In this document: positions 1,971 to 14,858 of the stretch, in pieces
Numbering within the stretch: position 1 is the first letter of the stretch
How the letters are laid out: each line of letters starts with the position of its first letter
Assembly: GCA_003601775.1 (NCBI GenBank)
Contig: PIYN01000010.1
Location: forward strand, 1 to 38,365
Source of the DNA: Candidatus Bathyarchaeota archaeon
Lineage (GTDB): Archaea > Thermoproteota > Bathyarchaeia > TCS64 > PIYN01
Direction: 5' to 3'
Length of the DNA: 38,365 nucleotides
Program-made: the position numbers and the translations under genes
The notes under the pieces: generated by a model
The model's database searches: none
Told to the model about the DNA's origin: nothing
What the model saw: the letters and a program-made list of their open reading frames with translations, nothing else

Positions 1971-3371
1971 ATGCTTGAAAGCCTCAAATCCGAGTTGGAG
2001 AAGGCCCTGGATAGGGCGGTGGGACTCGGGGCCTCCTACGCCGATATCCGCTTCCAGCGGTACGACTACGAGTTGATAGAGGTTGAGAACAGGGCCCTGA
2101 AGAGCTACTCCTCCCGGAGGCTCAGCGGGGTTGGTGTCCGGGTCGTGATCGAGGGAGGGGTGGGCTTCGCCTCGACGAGCGATCTGAGCCAACGGGGCAT
2201 CGGGAACGCCCTGGATAACGCGGTCAGAGCCGCTAAGGCCCTTGGGGATAGGGGGAGGGCCCTTAAGGTGGGGGAGGTTAATGAGTCCGAGGTCACTTTG
2301 AGGGTGAAGACGGACCCCTTTAACGTCTCCCCAGAGGAGAAGGTCTCCCTGGCCCTGGACGCGAATAAGGCCGCATGGACCGGCGACGAGATAAAGAGCG
2401 TGGTGACGAGGCTCGGCCTCTCCAAGGACTACAGGCTCTTCATCTCCTCGGAGGGGGGCGAGGTCGCCGTCGAGACCTCCCTCGTGGGCCTCTGGCACCA
2501 GACCGTCGCGAGGGTCAACGGGGTCATGGAGATGGTCGGAGACGCCGAGTCCCTCTGCTCCGGCTTCGAGTTCCTCAAATCCAAGGACTGGAACGCCTTT
2601 ACGGCGGATATATCAAGACTCGCCATCGAGGCCGCTGGCTCGAGGACCCCGCCCCCGGGGACGTACCCCGCGGTCGTCGACCCCGAGGTAGTGGGGCTGA
2701 TGCTCCACGAGGCCTTCGGCCACGCCTCTGAGGGGGACTACGTCTACACGGGGGAGTCTGTGCTCTCTAACAGGCTGGGCGACCAGTTGGCGAGCGACCT
2801 CGTGACGATAATCGATGAGGGGGTGGTGGAGGGAGGATACTTCTTCCCCTTCGACGATGAGGGGGTGAGGAAGGGGAGGACGGTGATAGTTGAGAAGGGC
2901 GTCTTGAAGGGGTATATCCACGATAGGAACTCGGCCCACCAGTTCGGCGTCGAGTCGACGGGTAACGGGAGGGCCCAGGACTTTGAGAACATACCCGTGG
3001 TCAGGCAGACGAACTACTACATGGAGCCCGGGGACCATGGCTTCGAGGAGTTGGTCGAGGACATAGACTTCGGGATCTACCTGAGGGGGAGGGGGTCGCG
3101 GGGAGGTCAGGTCTCGATCGGCATGGGTACCTTCACCTTCGGCGTCGGACCCTCCAAGATGATAAGGAAGGGGGAACTGGCGGAGACAGTGAGGGGCGTG
3201 GTCATAAGCGGCCTCATCCTCGAGACGCTGAAGACCATAGACGCCGTCGGCAAGGACCTGAAGATCACGACGAGCGTCTTCGGCGGATGTGGTAAGAAGA
3301 ACCAGATGGTCAGGGTTGGTGACGGAGGACCCCATATCAGGGTCCGCAGGATGACCGTCGGGGGGAGGTGA
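1971..3371 (+). CDS. tldD: TldD, metalloprotease subunit of the TldD/TldE complex
   Basis: This is the catalytic subunit of a heterodimeric zinc protease that degrades short unfolded peptides; in E. coli it matures microcin B17 and removes CcdA. At 466 residues it has the usual family length. The zinc motif HEAFGH is at residues 246-251, followed by ASEGD. The C-terminal GGCGKKNQ..GDGGPHI supplies the conserved cysteine (about residue 440) that corresponds to the third zinc ligand in bacterial TldD. The start is ATG 1971: the frame is closed by TAA at 1947, and GGAG sits just before the ATG. Its stop overlaps the start region of tldE, so the two are co-transcribed and probably co-translated. 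No peptide substrate gene (for example a RiPP precursor) is visible nearby, so general peptide turnover is the simplest role. Confidence 0.95.
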   Translation: MLESLKSELEKALDRAVGLGASYADIRFQRYDYELIEVENRALKSYSSRRLSGVGVRVVIEGGVGFASTSDLSQRGIGNALDNAVRAAKALGDRGRALKVGEVNESEVTLRVKTDPFNVSPEEKVSLALDANKAAWTGDEIKSVVTRLGLSKDYRLFISSEGGEVAVETSLVGLWHQTVARVNGVMEMVGDAESLCSGFEFLKSKDWNAFTADISRLAIEAAGSRTPPPGTYPAVVDPEVVGLMLHEAFGHASEGDYVYTGESVLSNRLGDQLASDLVTIIDEGVVEGGYFFPFDDEGVRKGRTVIVEKGVLKGYIHDRNSAHQFGVESTGNGRAQDFENIPVVRQTNYYMEPGDHGFEELVEDIDFGIYLRGRGSRGGQVSIGMGTFTFGVGPSKMIRKGELAETVRGVVISGLILETLKTIDAVGKDLKITTSVFGGCGKKNQMVRVGDGGPHIRVRRMTVGGR

Positions 3372-3376
3372 TGGAG

Positions 3377-4711
3377 ATGGAGGTAGCGGAACTCGCCGTC
3401 AAGAGGGCGCTGGAGCTGGGCGCGACCGAAGCGGAGGCCTATGTCCAGAGGGCCAAGATCATCAGGGTCGGAGGGTCCGAGGAGATCGAGGACTTCAACA
3501 CCGTCGAGTCCCTGGGGATCGGCCTGAGGGTCGTCCTTGGGAGGAGGATCGCGAATTACTCAACCTCGATCCTCGACGAGGCCGAGGTCGAGGGGGCCGT
3601 GGCGAAGGCCGTCAAGATAGCCCGGGTCTCCCCTGAGGACCCCGATTGGAGGCGCCTGAACAGGAGGTTCGGCGAGTCCCAGGCCCAGGGATACTACGAT
3701 GACTCCTTGGAGGCCCTGGATTATCAGGAGGTCGTCGAGGCCTTGGAGTCGCCGCTCAGCCTCGTGAGGGACTATGACCCGAGGGTCAAGCCGACCAGGG
3801 TCTTCCTGACCGTCGGGGTTACAGGGGTCTCCATAGCCAACAGTTACGGCGAGGGCTGTGAGAGGAAGGAGACCTACGTGGTCGCGAGTATGAGGGCGAA
3901 GGCCAAGGAAGGGGGGTTGGAGAGCACGGGGAGCGAGTACCAACAGGCGAGGTCCTGGCGGGAGATCGACTTCGAGGAACTGGCCACCAAGGCCTCGGAG
4001 AGGGCCGTGAAGTTCCTGAGGGCCAGGCCCATCCCAGGCGGGAGGATGCCCGTCATCATCAGGAACAGGATCTTCGCAAGTATACTCGGCGTACTCCTGA
4101 GCGGTCCCATAAACGCGGACTGGGTTCAGAAGGGCGCCTCCCCCCTCTCCAACAGGCTTGGAACCCAGATCGCCTCAGAGGACGTCCATATCATCGATGA
4201 CGGGGTGATGGAGGGAGGTTGGGGGACGAGGCCCTTTGACGATGAAGGGCACCCAACCCAGAGGACCCCGGTCGTCGAGGGAGGCATCCTCCGGAGCTTC
4301 CTCTACGACAATTATACAGCCCTAAAGGAAGGGGTCGAGTCGACCGGGAATGCCCAGAGGAGGGGCTATTGGACGACCCCGCAGCCCTCGCCGAGCAATC
4401 TGATCCTGAGGCCTGGGGGAGTGAGCTTCGAGGAGATGGTCGCTGAGACGAGGGAGGGGATCTACGTCGAGGAGACCATCGGGGAGTGGCTCTCAAACCC
4501 CGTGAGCGGCAACCTCAACGCCACGGTGACCCATGGATATCTCGTGAAGGAGGGTGAGTTAACGGAGCCTGTGAAGGGCGTAGTCATCTCGGGGAACTTC
4601 TACAGCCTCCTCAAGGAGGGAATAGAACTGGTCGGCGGCGACCTCCAAGGCAGCATGAACTACTACTCGCCGACGGTCAAGATAAGGCAGCTCACCATCG
4701 CGGGGAAATAA
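3377..4711 (+). CDS. tldE: TldE (PmbA), partner subunit of TldD
   Basis: This is the non-catalytic partner of TldD in the peptide-degrading complex. It shares the fold (LSNRLGTQIASEDVHIIDDGVMEGGWGTRPFDDEG parallels the TldD stretch) but lacks the HExxxH zinc motif, as expected. The frame is open from GTG 3368 and ATG 3371. I favour ATG 3377, because GGAGGTGA at 3364-3371, formed by the end of tldD, is a near-perfect Shine-Dalgarno sequence 5 nt before it. The track start (3368) would add three residues. The C-terminus (GNFYSLLKEGIELVGGDLQ) is complete and typical. The overlap with tldD indicates translational coupling and equal subunit supply. Confidence 0.93.
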   Translation: MEVAELAVKRALELGATEAEAYVQRAKIIRVGGSEEIEDFNTVESLGIGLRVVLGRRIANYSTSILDEAEVEGAVAKAVKIARVSPEDPDWRRLNRRFGESQAQGYYDDSLEALDYQEVVEALESPLSLVRDYDPRVKPTRVFLTVGVTGVSIANSYGEGCERKETYVVASMRAKAKEGGLESTGSEYQQARSWREIDFEELATKASERAVKFLRARPIPGGRMPVIIRNRIFASILGVLLSGPINADWVQKGASPLSNRLGTQIASEDVHIIDDGVMEGGWGTRPFDDEGHPTQRTPVVEGGILRSFLYDNYTALKEGVESTGNAQRRGYWTTPQPSPSNLILRPGGVSFEEMVAETREGIYVEETIGEWLSNPVSGNLNATVTHGYLVKEGELTEPVKGVVISGNFYSLLKEGIELVGGDLQGSMNYYSPTVKIRQLTIAGK

Positions 4712-6812: not shown

Positions 6813-7283
6813 GTGCAGGTCGGGGATGTAACAGAGCGAGTTAAGGAGTTCTTCCAAGATGAATACAACGCGATGACGCTCTACAGGGAACTCGCGGAGA
6901 TCGAGGGGGACGATGAGATGAAGCGCAGGCTGATGGAGATCTCCGCGATGGAGAGGTCCCACATGGATTTCTGGAGGAGTTTCTTGGAGAGGAGGGGCGT
7001 GAGGGTGGAGGGAGGAGGGCGGGCTTCAAGATCAGATACCTCAAATTCCCGAGGAGGATCCTCGGCATACCCCTCATCTCCCCCCTCGTCGCATTACCTT
7101 TCTCCATAGCCTCCGCCGGCTTACCCCTATCCATAGTCGGCTCCATCATCTCGACCATCTCCGGGATCTCCCATCCGGAAGAAGGTCATCGGGATGGTGA
7201 CAACAGGGTTGGGTGCAGCAGCACTGTCCTATGTATTCGGGAATGTCATCCAAATGCTCTTCGGATCAGGCGTTCCGCTCTGA
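6813..7283 (+). pseudogene. Decayed ferritin-like/VIT1-CCC1 iron transporter
   Basis: The intact family has an N-terminal rubrerythrin-like helical domain followed by a VIT1/CCC1 membrane domain (about 350 residues). Here the gene is broken into three frames. Frame of 6813: ferritin-like helices with YRELAEIEGDDEMKRRL and SAMERSHMDFW, running to VRVEGG near 7015. A one-base shift in a G-rich run then opens AGFKIRYLKFPRRILG, directly followed by PLISPLVALPFSIASAGLPLSIV, with roughly 200 residues of the membrane domain missing. Near 7170 a second shift leads to IRKKVIGMVTTGLGAAALSYVFG, the typical last helix, ending at TGA 7281. The track lists only the first piece (98 aa) with an out-of-frame tail. 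The gene cannot make an iron transporter; whether the N-terminal piece is still made is unknown. Confidence 0.82.
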
Positions 7284-8736: not shown

Positions 8737-10365
8737 ATGCCTCCTACTCTTAGAGAACGAGAGAATTTGATGGGCATGACCGAGGAAGAGTACGTTATCT
8801 GTCCTGAGTGCAAGTCTCTCGTCCCCCACACCCCCGTCTGCATCTACTGTGGGGCGAAGCTCCCCCGTCCTAAGAGAAAGGAGAAGGAGGACTCCTCCCT
8901 AACCCTGGAGGCGCAGATTGAGGAGGTCTCTGAGGAGGGTGTACAGGGGAGGTTGGGGCGTTATCTACTGTGGAGGGTTCGTCTCCTGGAGCTCCTGCGC
9001 TCGGGGAAGGTCTCGAGAGAGGTCTTTGAGCAGCTCTACAGGGAGTACTCCTCGGTGACCAAGAAGGCCATCGAGCGGAGGAGGAGGCTGGAGGAGGAGC
9101 TGGAGGGGATCGTGAAGGTGATGGAGGAGCGGAGGAGGCGCCTCGAGGAGCTGGATGTCCTCCGGTCGAACGGACTCCTCGTGAAGGAGGAGCTGCTCGA
9201 CGAGTACTCGAAGTTAAAGTCGGAGATCGAGGAGCTGGAGAGGCAGGCGGCACGGGTGAGGTTCCAGCACAGGGCCTTGGGATGGGTCTCCTCCGAGGGT
9301 CTCTCAGCTGATATGGCCTCGAAGTTCTCTGAGCGCTTCCAGAAGGCCCTCCTCTACCTTCCCACGATGGTCTCTCAGGGGCTTCTCTCCCCGGGGATGG
9401 AGGAGGAGGTGAGGGAGGGCCTCTTGGAGACCCTTAAGGTCTTGGAGAGGGAGAGGGCGGTGGAGGAGTCGCAGCCAAAGTTGGAGGAGCCGGCGGAGGT
9501 GAGGAGGGAGGAGCCCTTCGATGAGGAGACCCTCTTCGCTGAGGTCTCCTCCGTGGTCTTCGGGCATGACGATGAGATCAGGCGGGTCATAAAGGCGATA
9601 AAGATGGGGGACAACGTCCTCATCCTGGGCCGGCATGGGGAGGGGAAGACGGAGCTCCTCCTCCAGCTCCACAGGCGCCTTGGTGGGGTCTACTTCCACT
9701 GTAACGAGGAGGTCTCGGAGAGGGAGATCATCGCTGGGTTCAACCCCAGCGCCTTCGTGGGAGAGAATCCGATCCATAACGGGTGCCTCATGCAGATCGC
9801 GAGTGGGGCGGCGAAGGGCCTACCCATCGCCTTCATCGACGACATCATGAAGCTGAGGCCGAAGACCCAGGTCATCCTCTTCGAGGCGATGAACAACAAG
9901 GAGTTCACGAACCCCGTCGATGGGAGGAAGTACACGCTCCCGGAGGGCTTCTCCGTGGTCTCGGCCAGCAATCTGGAGAGCGTGGCCCAGGAGATGCCGG
10001 ACGCCGCCTTCCTCGACCGCTTCGGGAAGATCGTCATGTGGGGGGAGACCCCAGACGACGCGATGAGGAAGGCCTTGGAGCCCTATAGGCTGCCGGAGTG
10101 GGTAGTGGAGTTCCTCCTCTGGGTGAGGAGGGAGGTCGGGGAGATGCGCTACCTCGTCCCCGTGAGCTTCAGGAATATCATAAAATTCGCGAAGGAGTAC
10201 AACGCCTACAGGCAGCTCTATCAGGACACAGGGGAGCTCTGGAAGCTCGCCGTCGACCGCCTCCTCAAGATGAGGGTCATCAACGCCTTCGGCCTGAAGG
10301 AGTACGAGGAGGCGAGGGAGAAGATGAAGCGCTACCTCGAGGGGAAGAGGGGGCGTGTTACATAG
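8737..10365 (+). CDS. MoxR-like AAA+ ATPase with N-terminal zinc ribbon and coiled coil
   Basis: A 542-residue ATPase, probably acting as a chaperone-like remodeller together with the VWA protein encoded next to it. Layout: a zinc ribbon (Cys22, 25, 35, 38; CPEC and CIYC); a charged, helical, coiled-coil-like part at about 75-180 rich in RRRLEEELE repeats; a second helical region to about 265; then the AAA+ module. Walker A is GRHGEGKT (298-305). Walker B reads IAFIDD (Asp368, Asp369), so the usual catalytic Glu is replaced by Asp. Sensor 1 is SASN (Asn412) and the arginine-finger stretch is FLDRFG (Arg428). The C-terminal helical lid ends about 540. Ordinary MoxR proteins are about 300-330 residues and lack the N-terminal half. 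ATG 8737 lies about 20 bp after TTTAAC, so it may be leaderless; ATG 8770 is the alternative. The gene overlaps the VWA gene by 11 bp. Confidence 0.85.
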   Translation: MPPTLRERENLMGMTEEEYVICPECKSLVPHTPVCIYCGAKLPRPKRKEKEDSSLTLEAQIEEVSEEGVQGRLGRYLLWRVRLLELLRSGKVSREVFEQLYREYSSVTKKAIERRRRLEEELEGIVKVMEERRRRLEELDVLRSNGLLVKEELLDEYSKLKSEIEELERQAARVRFQHRALGWVSSEGLSADMASKFSERFQKALLYLPTMVSQGLLSPGMEEEVREGLLETLKVLERERAVEESQPKLEEPAEVRREEPFDEETLFAEVSSVVFGHDDEIRRVIKAIKMGDNVLILGRHGEGKTELLLQLHRRLGGVYFHCNEEVSEREIIAGFNPSAFVGENPIHNGCLMQIASGAAKGLPIAFIDDIMKLRPKTQVILFEAMNNKEFTNPVDGRKYTLPEGFSVVSASNLESVAQEMPDAAFLDRFGKIVMWGETPDDAMRKALEPYRLPEWVVEFLLWVRREVGEMRYLVPVSFRNIIKFAKEYNAYRQLYQDTGELWKLAVDRLLKMRVINAFGLKEYEEAREKMKRYLEGKRGRVT

Positions 10366-11428
10366 GAGGGGTTCCAGCGAGGATAGGCGCCTCTGGCTGG
10401 TAAAGTTCGAGTGTGAGGGACGGGATGGCGTCAGACGCGGCCTATACCTGGACGGCGTCTACACCTCCCGGAGCTTCATGGAGGCGGGGGACGAGGATCA
10501 GATACGTGACGCCCTATTGGATATGATCTCCTCCGGGAGGCTGACTTTGGACCCAGAGGGGAGGAACTCGAACCTCTCCCTCTCCTCCGTGGAGCGACAG
10601 GGCGATATCGTCACGGTGAGACTCCGCGCCGAGGACGTCGACAAAGAGACCAGAAGTCTCCCATTGTACGGGTTCGGGAGGCCTCATGGCCTTAGGATGG
10701 GGCCGGTGACGGAGTGGGATATCGTGGGCAGGGTGAGGGAGTACTTGGAGGGTAACCGCTTCCTCGAGTTCCTTGAGCTTGTGAGGTCCATCGCACCCGT
10801 CGTGGAGGAGAGGGCCATGACCCCCTTCGATGGGAAGACGGTCCACCCCATCTCCTCGAGGACGATCCTCAGCGAGCTCACCGTCTACTCCAAGGGCCTC
10901 GTCGGCCACCATAAGAGGGAGGCGAGGACCGTCATCCTTCTGGATAGAAGCGTGAGCATGTCGAACCCCTGGTCGATATGGGAGGAGTACCCGAAGATCG
11001 ACGTCGCGAAGTTCCTCGTGAGGGCCCTCCAGGCGCTGCAGTTCAACAACGTCCTCCTCAGCTTCGGGGAGGATGTGAGGGAGGAGCCCGACCTGGAGGC
11101 CGTGGAGGCGGTGGACGGGGAGACCCGCCTCGACAGGGCCCTGATGGAGGCGGCGCTGCTGGAGCCCGAGAGGCTCGTGATAATCACAGATGGGAAGCCC
11201 GTCTACTCCGAGAGCCGGGACACGGAGAGGCTCTGCGACACCGCGATCAACGTCCTGGACGCGATGTCCCGCTCCAGGATCAACGTCCTCATCGTCCTCC
11301 TGGGCTACGACTACGACATGGTCAGGTTCTACCGAAGGCTGGAGGAGAACCCCACCGTCACCCTCCTGGAGCTCGCGGCCCAGAGCGACATCGTTGAGAT
11401 GATGGAGAAGCTCTCCCACTGGCTGTAG
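10355..11428 (+). CDS. VWA-domain protein, partner of the MoxR-like ATPase
   Basis: A 357-residue protein whose C-terminal half is a von Willebrand factor A domain. The metal-binding MIDAS motif is DRSVS (Asp197, Ser199, Ser201), followed by GETRLD with the MIDAS threonine (Thr257) and IITDGKP (Asp279). The N-terminal 190 residues are mixed alpha/beta and charged, and I do not recognise them. No signal peptide or membrane helix is evident, so it is cytoplasmic. The pairing of a MoxR ATPase with a VWA protein is a well-known arrangement (as in RavA-ViaA and NorQ-NorD) in which the VWA protein recruits the substrate for the ATPase to remodel. The start is GTG 10355, overlapping the ATPase gene, which supports co-translation. 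The target is not encoded obviously nearby. Confidence 0.85.
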   Translation: MLHRRGSSEDRRLWLVKFECEGRDGVRRGLYLDGVYTSRSFMEAGDEDQIRDALLDMISSGRLTLDPEGRNSNLSLSSVERQGDIVTVRLRAEDVDKETRSLPLYGFGRPHGLRMGPVTEWDIVGRVREYLEGNRFLEFLELVRSIAPVVEERAMTPFDGKTVHPISSRTILSELTVYSKGLVGHHKREARTVILLDRSVSMSNPWSIWEEYPKIDVAKFLVRALQALQFNNVLLSFGEDVREEPDLEAVEAVDGETRLDRALMEAALLEPERLVIITDGKPVYSESRDTERLCDTAINVLDAMSRSRINVLIVLLGYDYDMVRFYRRLEENPTVTLLELAAQSDIVEMMEKLSHWL

Positions 11429-11493: not shown

Positions 11494-13071
11494 TTGTCGT
11501 CGAGATCTCTGAAGGTTATTCTGGGTGGTACCCTCATCGATGGGACGGGTGGGCCGCCTATAAGGGATGGGGCCGTGGTCATCTCCGGGTCGAGGATCGT
11601 GGAGGTGGGACCGGCTGGGGAGGGGGAGGTCCCGAGGGGTGCGGAGGTCATAGACGCCGCGGGGAGGACCGTGATGCCTGGTTTCATAGATGCTCATACT
11701 CACTTCATGGGGCTGGGTGTGCGGACCCTCACGACCCTCGACCTCTCGGGTACGAGGTCGATCTCAGAGGTCCTCAGCTTGGTGAGGGAGAGGCTGGCGG
11801 GGATGCCGAGGGGGACCTGGCTCCTGGGCCGGGGATGGGATGAGAGCAAGTGGGTAGAGAGGAGGTATATAACGAAGAGGGACTTGGACCCTGTCTCCCC
11901 TGAGAATCCCGTGGCGCTCGTCCGCGTCTGCGGACACCTCATCACGCTGAACACGAGGGCCCTCCAGGCCGCGAAGATCACCCGTGAGACCCCAGACCCC
12001 CCGGGCGGCAAGATCGATAGGGACCCCTTGACGGGGGAGCCCACCGGCGTGCTGAGGGACGCCGGTATGCTTGTCTACAAGGTCATACCCCCCACCCCGA
12101 AGGAGATGTCCCTGAAGGGCCTGAGGAAGGCCTGTGAGATCGCCCTAAGCCTGGGGTGTACCAGCATCCACGAGGCGGGGATGGATGCCAACGGCTTCAG
12201 GACCTATCAGACGGCGCTGGAGGAGGGCCTCCTCACGGTGAGGGCCTACGTCATGCCGAGGGGGACGATGATAGAGGCCCTCGAGGCCCTCGGGGTGAGG
12301 ACGGGCTTCGGGAACGAGCACCTCAAGATAGGCTCCGTGAAGTTCATCCTCGACGGCTCCATGGGGGCCCACACGGCTGCCCTCTTCGAGCCCTACGCCG
12401 ACGACCCCTCGACGAGCGGCATCTTCGTCACACCGCCGGAGAGGTTGAGGGAGATGGTGATGAAGGCCCATAGCCTGGGGATGCAGGTGGCGATCCACGC
12501 CATCGGCGACAGGGGGATCGAGGAGGCCCTGAACGCCTTGGAGGCGGCGCTGGAGGAGGAGCCGAGGGAGGATCACCGCCACAGGATCGAGCACTGCGAG
12601 GTCCTCACGGAGGACCAGATAGCCCGGATCAAGCGCCTCGGCGTCATAGCCTCCATGCAGCCCAACTTCGTCGGGGAGTGGAGCCAACCCGGGGGGATGT
12701 ACGAGGAGCGCCTGGGCCCAATCAGGCTGAGGCGTAACAACCCCTACAGGAGGCTCCTCGACGAGGGGATCAAGGTCTCCTTCGGCTCCGACTGCATGCC
12801 CTTCCATCCCCTCTACGGCCTCTGGTCTGCCGTCAACCACCCCATAGAGGAGAGCAGGATCACCCTGGAGGAGGCCGTGAGGTGCTACACCCTCGACGCC
12901 GCCTACGCCTCCTTCGAGGAGGACTTGAAGGGCTCCCTGGAGCCGGGGAAGCTCGCCGACATCATCATCCTCTCAGAGGACCTGACCTCGATCCCCCCGG
13001 AGAAGATCAGGGACGTGAAGGTTGACATGACTATGGTGGGCGGAAAGGTCCTCTACAGGAGGGTCGCATAG
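11494..13071 (+). CDS. YtcJ-like amidohydrolase (amidohydrolase 3 family)
   Basis: A 525-residue metal-dependent hydrolase; the true substrate is unknown (the family includes formamide, imidazolone-like and N-acyl amide hydrolases). A beta-sandwich start ([11 protein letters not shown]) leads to [11 protein letters not shown] with the metal ligands His68 and His70. Later ligands are probably in [16 protein letters not shown] and [10 protein letters not shown]. The C-terminal LADIIIL strand closes the sandwich. The start is TTG 11494 (GTGAGGG precedes it), with a TATA-like GGCTTTAATC near 11450. The second copy in this window (20108-21748, minus strand) shares a nearly identical C-terminal stretch ([19 protein letters not shown]), so the two are paralogues. 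It follows the VWA gene by 65 bp with its own promoter, so a link to the ATPase is not implied. Confidence 0.88.
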
Positions 13072-13074
13072 CCC

Positions 13075-13080
13075 TTTTTT
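13075..13080 (+). terminator. T-run terminator after the first amidohydrolase
   Basis: CCCTTTTTTAATG directly follows the stop codon at 13071; T-runs of this kind end archaeal transcripts without needing a hairpin. Confidence 0.5.
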
Positions 13081-13119
13081 AATGATTGAGGGGTTATGGG
13101 GTTCTACCGCGGGTTGACC

Positions 13120-13127
13120 TTTTTAAA
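13120..13127 (+). promoter_or_regulatory. TATA box of the small-protein/SLC13 operon
   Basis: TTTTTAAA in CTTTTTAAATTCG is centred about 40 bp before ATG 13164. A start near 13151 would leave a leader of about 13 nt containing GGTGTTGGTG. Confidence 0.55.
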
Positions 13128-13163
13128 TTCGAGTTAGCCCTTTCCTACTTAAGGTGTTGGTGA

Positions 13164-13451
13164 ATGGGGAAGATTAAGACTCTTGAGATCGTTGTAAGAG
13201 GGGATATTATAGAGAAGAACTTAATCCTGATGCTGGCTGAGGCCTTGAGGGATTCTAAACTCAGGGCGGACTTCAGCTCAAATATTGTCGTTCCACCCTT
13301 CCTGAAGGCCGTGGAGAGGCGGTATCCGAGCCTGGCGGTTCTATATGCCACCGTTGACATCGAGGACCTCTTCAAGTTCAGGGCATTAATAGAGGAACTC
13401 TGCGAGAGGGAGGAGTGCTGCCTTATATCCCTGACCGTGCTAGATGGGTGA
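13164..13451 (+). CDS. Small protein of unknown function, weakly Pcc1-like
   Basis: A 95-residue soluble alpha/beta protein. The pattern of two helical and strand segments ending in VDIEDLFKFRALIEELC faintly resembles the end of Pcc1, the dimerisation subunit of the KEOPS tRNA-modification complex (strand, acidic D, helix with L-R-x-x-hydrophobic), and the length fits. The usual N/S-x-x-R-W helix features are missing, so I do not assign it. It has its own TATA box and precedes the SLC13 gene by 24 bp, suggesting an operon. An antisense ORF (13145-13966) covers it, but the plus-strand reading has a promoter, a ribosome site and a normal composition. Confidence 0.6.
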   Translation: MGKIKTLEIVVRGDIIEKNLILMLAEALRDSKLRADFSSNIVVPPFLKAVERRYPSLAVLYATVDIEDLFKFRALIEELCEREECCLISLTVLDG

Positions 13452-13475
13452 GACCTAACACTGGAGGATAGGGAA

Positions 13476-14858
13476 ATGAGGTGGCGGAGGAGGATATGGA
13501 TACTACTTATTATCGGGGTTATCGTACTGGCTTCATATCTACTCACTGGAGAATTGACCCCGAAGGAGCGCGGCGGACTCGTGATACTCCTCCTCACAGC
13601 ATCCCTCTGGATCTCTGAGGCGATCCCCCTCCCCGCGACCTCTCTTCTCGTCCCCTTTCTCCAGCCCCTCTTCGGCCTCCAATCCTTCTCCTCAGCCCTG
13701 GAGCCCTTCTTCGCCCCTGTCGTCGCCCTCCTCCTCGGCGGCTTCCTGCTAGCCAAGGCTGTGGAGAAGCACGACCTCGACGAGTACTTGGCGAACCTGG
13801 TCCTCTCCAAGGTGCGAGCAAAGCCGCGTATCGTAGTTCTCGCGCTCATGTCCGCGACGGCCTTCCTCTCCATGTGGATGAGCAACACGGCCTCCGCAGC
13901 CCTGATGCTCACCATCGCTCTCCGCCTTGTGGCCGCCATCGAGGAGAGGGATCCCAACCTCTCCAAGGTAATCGTCCTCGGCGTCGCCTACTCCTCGACG
14001 GTCGGAGGGATCGCCACCCTCGTGGGGACGCCGACCTGTGCCCTGGCGGCCGGGGCCCTCAGGGACCTCCTAGGCTACGAACTCACCTTCCTGGGCTGGT
14101 CCCTCTACGGGCTGCCCATAACGGTGGCGATGATCCTCATCATCTGGCTCCTCCTCTTCGCCCTCTTCCGCCCTAGGATCGGGGAGATACCGAGGGCCGT
14201 TAAGCGGGTGGGGCCCTTGAAGAGAAGGCAGAAGTTGACGCTGGTTATATTCCTCGCCGCAGTCCTCCTCTGGTCCTCGGAGAGGCTCCCAGAGCCCCTC
14301 GCAGAACTCGTCGGCTGGAGGGGGCACGGGTTATCCTCAGGCATGGTCTCCCTCTTGGTTGCGGTGGTCCTCTTCTCAACGGAGTTGCTGGAGGGGCCGG
14401 ACCTCTCGGGGGTGAACTGGGGGGCGCTGCTCCTCATCGGAGGGGGGCTGAGCCTCGGCTCGGCCCTCGAGGTCTCCGGGCTGACGCGGCTTATCAGCGG
14501 GGGCCTCGTCCATCTGACCAAGGAGGCCTTCGTCGGGGCCATCATCCCTCTGACGGCCTTCTCCGCCATTACCCTGAGCATAGTCGCGAGCAACACCGCG
14601 AGCGCCAGCATCTTTCTCCCCATAGCCATCGACTTGGGCACCATCACGGGGACAAACCCGGTCATCCTAGCCGTCGTCGTGGGCATCTGCTCGAGCCTGG
14701 ATTTCATGCTCCCCGTGGGGACCCCGCCGAACGCGATAGCCTACAGCACCGGGAAGGTGACTATGGGCGAGATGATCAGAGCGGGGGTCCTCCTCGACAT
14801 CATCGGCTGCGTCCTCACTGTAATACTCGCCCTCTCACTCTGGCCGCTCATCGCTTAG
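13476..14858 (+). CDS. SLC13/DASS family anion transporter
   Basis: A 460-residue sodium- or proton-coupled carboxylate/sulfate permease of the divalent anion:sodium symporter family, in the cytoplasmic membrane. It has the two internal-repeat SNT substrate motifs: SNTASAALML in the first half and SNTASASIFLP in the second. The usual ending LDFMLPVGTPPNAIAYSTGKV is also present. The AT/VGTP loop (IATLVGTPTCALAAG) follows the first motif. About 11-12 hydrophobic helices are present. Charged residues inside the helices are as expected for a dicarboxylate carrier, but citrate, succinate and sulfate cannot be told apart from the sequence alone. ATG 13476 lies 24 bp after the small-protein gene. 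Its end overlaps the opposing MFS gene by 4 bp. Confidence 0.92.
   Translation: MRWRRRIWILLIIGVIVLASYLLTGELTPKERGGLVILLLTASLWISEAIPLPATSLLVPFLQPLFGLQSFSSALEPFFAPVVALLLGGFLLAKAVEKHDLDEYLANLVLSKVRAKPRIVVLALMSATAFLSMWMSNTASAALMLTIALRLVAAIEERDPNLSKVIVLGVAYSSTVGGIATLVGTPTCALAAGALRDLLGYELTFLGWSLYGLPITVAMILIIWLLLFALFRPRIGEIPRAVKRVGPLKRRQKLTLVIFLAAVLLWSSERLPEPLAELVGWRGHGLSSGMVSLLVAVVLFSTELLEGPDLSGVNWGALLLIGGGLSLGSALEVSGLTRLISGGLVHLTKEAFVGAIIPLTAFSAITLSIVASNTASASIFLPIAIDLGTITGTNPVILAVVVGICSSLDFMLPVGTPPNAIAYSTGKVTMGEMIRAGVLLDIIGCVLTVILALSLWPLIA

Follow-up and report, generated by a model that had tools for sequence, protein, structure and literature searches.

The question raised by this locus is whether a MoxR-like AAA+ protein with Asp in the place of the catalytic Glu of Walker B still serves, together with the VWA protein encoded next to it, as a remodeling motor, or whether it works in another way. 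Few AAA+ machines are as poorly understood as the MoxR/VWA pairs, and, to our knowledge, those known have been described as motors. The window, i.e., the whole stretch of 38,365 nucleotides that was analyzed (contig C15), belongs to a Bathyarchaeia genome of 1.53 Mb that is 92.7% complete. A sequence-only reading had described here a 542-residue AAA+ ORF with a four-cysteine ribbon and a coiled coil, overlapping a VWA gene, and the ORFs bore this out: the AAA+ gene (8737–10365, + strand, 542 codons) and the VWA gene (10355–11428, + strand, 357 amino acids, GTG start) overlap by 11 bp. The length of the AAA+ protein had to be revised. Because homologue alignments begin at about ATG 8776, the conserved start is probably this codon (or ATG 8770), which gives a protein of 529–531 residues. 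A tRNA-Gly is located on the opposite strand in the gap upstream of the AAA+ gene; therefore, the two genes probably form their own transcription unit, which would begin in this gap. As the host is an archaeon, a scan for sigma-70 promoters was uninformative.

The AAA+ module was assigned to Pfam AAA_5 (E 7e-13, 49.1 bits vs. a cut-off of 22). AAA_3 (PF07726, 22.2 bits vs. 27) and bpMoxR (PF20030, 18.8 bits vs. 27) fell under their cut-offs, and the CbbQ C-terminal family, which we take to be PF08406, was absent among the Pfam hits of this protein at E 0.1. In its AlphaFold model (mean pLDDT 78.6), the C4 zinc ribbon is followed by a disordered stretch, then by long helices and finally by the AAA+ module. 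The best Foldseek matches of this model in the PDB were NorQ (9qh8, 9qh4) and AfCbbQ2 (6l1q), with target TM values of 0.70–0.76, and a profile search of the PDB placed midasin first, with NorQ also among the matches; when the PDB was searched by sequence, neither of the two proteins found a match, and the VWA profile found none either. Walker A (GRHGEGKT, residues 298–305, 9628–9651, + strand) contains the Lys and the Thr and is atypical at positions 3 and 5. The candidate helix-2 insert region, EREIIAGFNPSAFVGENPIHNGCLMQIA (9703–9801, + strand), where contact with the pore or the partner would be expected, is conserved in the family and lies in the right place, and the model gave it a low pLDDT and no hairpin. 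Walker B (IAFIDD, 9826–9843, + strand) ends in Asp369 (GAC, 9841–9843), confirming the earlier observation of IDD instead of DE. Sensor 1 (Asn412), the arginine finger (Arg428) and sensor 2 (Arg479) are all present in the window copy (9955–10176, + strand).

For the VWA protein, Pfam gave weak VWA matches, and the AlphaFold model (mean pLDDT 69.4, about 80–90 in the VWA core) had a VWA fold, for which human MDN1-MIDAS was the first match, followed by Rpn10 and the NorD VWA domain. Its N-terminal 190 residues, previously left unrecognized, were resolved by the model into a small alpha/beta domain (residues ~12–93, 10388–10633, + strand, pLDDT about 65–85), a linker, a pair of helices and, ahead of the VWA domain, a conserved segment; no beta-propeller was present in the model. 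The MIDAS (DxSxS-T-D) is complete in the window copy (DRSVS at residues 197–201, T257 and D279; 10943–11197, + strand). In G021 and G024, it reads DRGxS (Ser to Gly), and the G024 protein is also devoid of the TRLD loop. The conserved pre-VWA segment, FDGKTVHPISSRTILSELTVYSKGLV (residues 158–183, 10826–10903, + strand), directly precedes VWA strand 1 (192–197). It is deleted in G022; with this genome set aside, conservation over residues 156–186 was 0.74 vs. 0.65 in the VWA core. In NorD, a finger goes into the NorQ pore and is linked to the MIDAS by a single strand (PMC9976466, PMC13036017). Segment 158–183 appears to occupy the position of this finger and is a candidate pore finger, which we infer from position and conservation because the model leaves the segment unfolded (pLDDT about 30–40).

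When 257 Bathyarchaeia genomes were searched with proteins and profiles, the pair was detected in eight, of which five (G000, G005, G021, G022 and G024) belong to the window's order and three (G071, G072 and G073) to family f11 of another order. The VWA profile matched none of 397 further genomes across the phylum. A survey of the genome context of homologous pairs, which the sequence-only reading had proposed, showed that the AAA+ and VWA genes are adjacent in all eight genomes that have either of them. Most of these eight genomes are fragmented assemblies; the one incomplete gene of the family is the AAA+ gene of G071, which is cut off by the end of its contig. We found no conserved third gene: neighbors differ among the window, G005, B26-1 and the g9 genomes, and a HAD-like downstream gene is common to the pair loci within genus g9 only. 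A search of viral contigs gave no relatives of the pair, and a search of plasmids gave remote MoxR matches only. One match from Bacilli (L044) was rejected as a family member, being a ClpX-like protein. In the phylogenetic tree, the branch between the family and other MoxR-like proteins carries about 3 changes per column; the sister group is unsure because some outgroups are long, and the tree does not tell in which order the changes within the family took place.

The Glu of Walker B is the residue that normally splits ATP. Residues at this catalytic position were compared by HMM alignment between the family and 57 other archaeal MoxR/AAA_5-like proteins, all 57 of which had Glu and none Asp, so that the possible objection that Asp might be common in active MoxR proteins fell away. 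Members of the window's order had Asp (window), Ala (G005, G021 and G024) or Ser (G022), whereas Glu was kept in G071, G072 and G073 of family f11. The altered Walker B is thus real and lineage-specific, but it is not a defining trait of the family, because relatives in another order keep Glu. Asp369 is not a product of chance or error, since none of the five order members has Glu, yet all 57 other MoxR-like proteins do; a sequencing error was ruled out by the absence of Glu from five independent genomes of the order. Elsewhere in the ATP site, the Walker A Lys, the Walker B Asp, the arginine finger and sensor 2 show no substitution in any of the seven long family sequences, and sensor 1 is Asn except in G021 and G024, where it is Asp. 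The family P-loop reads G-x-H-[GA]-E-G-K-T (GxHxEGKT), with positions 3 and 5 occupied by His and Glu in 7/7 family sequences and in 0/57 other MoxR-like proteins; judged from these alignments, it is a better family marker than the altered Walker B. We use the label MoxR-like because the catalytic Glu is only partly kept in the family. By sequence, strict membership in MoxR (clade 7 of the AAA+ proteins) fails on this residue and on AAA_3.

Rough NG86 estimates of dN/dS, some of them on short segments, were 0.147 for the AAA+ gene in the closest Ala pair, G024/G021, and 0.178 in G072/G073, the Glu pair, for which the B26-1 record was used; within the AAA+ module, the corresponding values were 0.144 and 0.110. 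The Ala-bearing AAA+ copies of G021 and G024 are under purifying selection, and the value of 0.147 means that the AAA+ gene is not a pseudogene where the Glu has been lost. In the VWA gene, dN/dS in G021/G024 was 0.37 in the VWA core (vs. 0.12 in the f11 pair), 0.57 in the finger segment (vs. 0.11) and 0.185 in the N-terminal part, which suggests relaxed demands on the VWA/MIDAS end of the system in this genus.

The part of the AAA+ protein that precedes the AAA+ module contains the four-cysteine zinc ribbon (CPEC..CIYC, residues 22–38, C22-x2-C25/C35-x2-C38; 8800–8850, + strand) and a helical coiled-coil region (8950–9471, + strand; AlphaFold helices 59–232 of the 529-residue form). For this fused module, Pfam, NCBIfam and PADLOC gave only generic zinc-ribbon, coiled-coil and AAA profiles, in agreement with the suggestion that the architecture was undescribed. 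Residues 13–240 are homologous to stand-alone Zn-ribbon/coiled-coil proteins of ~310 residues (designated ZCC here), which share the N-terminal ~230 residues with the AAA+ protein and have the same C4 ribbon, but lack the AAA+ module and, in some cases, have a SHOCT-like C-terminal end in its stead. The four Cys are invariant in seven family members and in the stand-alone relatives. Homology to these proteins makes the recruitment or assembly domain proposed by the sequence-only reading plausible. The ZCC profile matched 50 of 257 Bathyarchaeia genomes (fusion proteins counted), which belong to the window's order, f11, f14 and a few other groups. A separate ZCC copy was present in seven of the eight genomes carrying the AAA+/VWA pair, which is weak evidence of a link because ZCC is widespread in the window's order anyway.

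In 10 members of the order, the stand-alone ZCC gene is followed by a gene for a ~95-residue, two-helix membrane protein with weak DPM2/PIG-P matches, a possible archaeal relative of the regulatory subunits of dolichol-phosphate-mannose synthase or GPI-transferase. Zn-ribbon/coiled-coil/SHOCT genes with a DPM2/PIG-P-like neighbor were seen on contig C38 of the same genome as the window (L045 5281–6558) and at loci L117–L126. Because the ZCC gene precedes this membrane protein in the 10 order members, one lead is that the binding partner of the fused N-terminal module may be a membrane-linked scaffold. In f11 and f14, the stand-alone ZCC gene adjoins a DNA-ligase gene instead (L127 and L129); the L129 neighbor is an ATP-dependent DNA ligase by Pfam, and that of L127 a DNA ligase by eye only. 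Another type of neighbor, a membrane protein with a C-terminal double zinc ribbon, was encoded near the stand-alone ZCC gene at L046 3199–3927 and L048 5935–6735.

Several known systems resemble the pair. NorQ/NorD, the nitric oxide reductase maturation system, is likewise a two-protein MoxR/VWA system, in which NorQ matches the AAA+ model and the VWA domain of NorD the VWA model. NorD also has an N-terminal domain, a disordered linker, a segment before strand 1 and a C-terminal VWA domain, although it is much larger (about 70 kDa) than the VWA protein described here. Unlike our AAA+ protein, NorQ (about 270 residues) lacks both Zn ribbon and coil and carries the catalytic Glu, and no nitric oxide reductase genes were recognized among the neighbors of the pair that we examined. 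CbbQ/CbbO, the Rubisco activase, shares the AAA+ fold and the pairing with a VWA protein; the present pair differs from it in the absence of a CbbQ C-terminal match, the N-terminal module, the changed catalytic Glu and the GxHxEGKT P-loop. Midasin (Rea1/MDN1) was the top PDB profile match of the AAA+ domain and the top fold match of the VWA domain, and its first AAA+ module, as aligned here, also has a non-canonical Walker B (IED). However, midasin is one chain of ~5000 residues with six AAA+ modules, in contrast to one module and a separate VWA protein. The pair is thus a rare, very divergent and lineage-restricted relative of NorQ/NorD and CbbQ/CbbO. Being NorQD/CbbQO-like by fold and pairing, it is a variant of MoxR/VWA systems and not a new kind of system.

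How the pair might work can be considered on this basis. The type of pair that the sequence-only reading had recognized, a MoxR/VWA remodeling system, was supported by fold and adjacency, but because the catalytic Glu of the window copy is gone, it is doubtful whether this copy is an active remodeler. When the Walker B Glu of AAA+ proteins is changed, hydrolysis usually drops, by up to a couple of orders of magnitude (PMC3740443). Mutation of Walker B in NorQ left an ATPase activity that was severely reduced yet measurable, ATP was still bound, and the NorQD complex was obtained in better yield. With the Glu replaced in the window's lineage, ATP binding should therefore persist and hydrolysis should be very slow. 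We favor, with moderate confidence, a NorQD/CbbQO-like pair with a built-in assembly or recruitment module, whose motor would run very slowly or not at all in the window's lineage, where the pair would act as an ATP-gated clamp. The AAA+ module would assemble as a hexamer, and the VWA protein would dock at its pore via the finger segment before strand 1 and its C-terminus, thereby offering the target its MIDAS and its small N-terminal domain; the zinc ribbon and coiled coil would link the ring to some partner or to a scaffold of the ZCC type. The window ring would bind ATP, hydrolyze it slowly at best and hold its VWA partner for long; its likeliest role in this lineage would be that of a long-lived clamp loaded with ATP, or of a slow switch, and not that of a fast remodeling motor. 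More tentatively, the family may include a naturally hydrolysis-deficient MoxR ring that has turned from a motor into a stable ATP-gated clamp, still needing its VWA partner and the fused Zn-ribbon/coiled-coil scaffold. If true, one archaeal order has evolved a loss of the Walker B Glu akin to the mutation with which experimenters trapped NorQ-NorD. Searches of the literature for Walker B losses in nature brought up no specific case. Retention of Glu in one lineage and its loss in another, with pairing and selection retained, would be a natural experiment on the need for ATP hydrolysis, and the fused module with its stand-alone relatives offers a concrete handle on the search for the target.

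Asp is the mildest replacement of Glu, and useful activity could remain in the window copy. The main alternative, which we consider somewhat unlikely, is that the two proteins of the window still make up a fully functional motor that remodels a target by ATP turnover as NorQD does, with Asp369 or the P-loop His or Glu supplying the carboxylate or positioning the water. In the window copy, the Lys of Walker A, the Asp of Walker B, both sensors and the arginine finger are intact, its VWA protein has an intact MIDAS and finger segment, and the P-loop His and Glu, which all seven family sequences and none of the 57 others contain, might share in catalysis. However, the sister copies have Ala or Ser where all 57 other MoxR-like proteins have Glu, and the P-loop residues did not arise as a compensation because the Glu-keeping members have them too. 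An improbable explanation for the same pattern is decay of the pair in the window's order, with the catalytic Glu, sensor 1, MIDAS and finger lost in turn and the genes disappearing. The sensor 1 Asp and MIDAS Gly of G021/G024, the loop deletion in G024, the finger deletion in G022 and the elevated dN/dS of the VWA core and finger in G021/G024 point in this direction; on the other hand, the frames are open everywhere, dN/dS of the G021/G024 AAA+ gene and VWA N-terminal part is low (0.147 and 0.185), and the window copy is intact save for Asp369.

Two further explanations call on other components. The genome of the window also encodes an ordinary MoxR protein of 308 residues (contig C42), which could supply hydrolysis in a mixed ring with the altered subunit; this gene is unlinked, and a very long branch separates the family from other MoxR-like proteins. 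We regard such a ring as very improbable. MoxR and VWA proteins also form the core of the MoxR-vWA beta-propeller/VMAP ternary conflict systems (PMC7159879), and the patchy distribution of the pair would suit a defense function of this kind. We give this possibility almost no credence: bpMoxR is below its cut-off, no third component or effector was found, the PADLOC matches are weak and confined to generic AAA or coiled-coil parts, and no viral relatives were detected. The slowed or disabled, clamp-like pair remains our preferred reading.

Other genes in the window were also noted. Directly after the AAA+/VWA pair (11494–14858), there are genes for an amidohydrolase, a ~95-residue protein without a Pfam match and a DASS transporter. 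The same cluster occurs in G007 (L048 384–3778), at a distance of a few kb from the stand-alone Zn-ribbon/coil gene. Upstream of the pair, a 98-residue ORF (6813–7109) showed a partial rubrerythrin match below the cut-off, and genes for TldD- and PmbA-like metallopeptidases (1971–4711) lie side by side, an ordinary archaeal pair.
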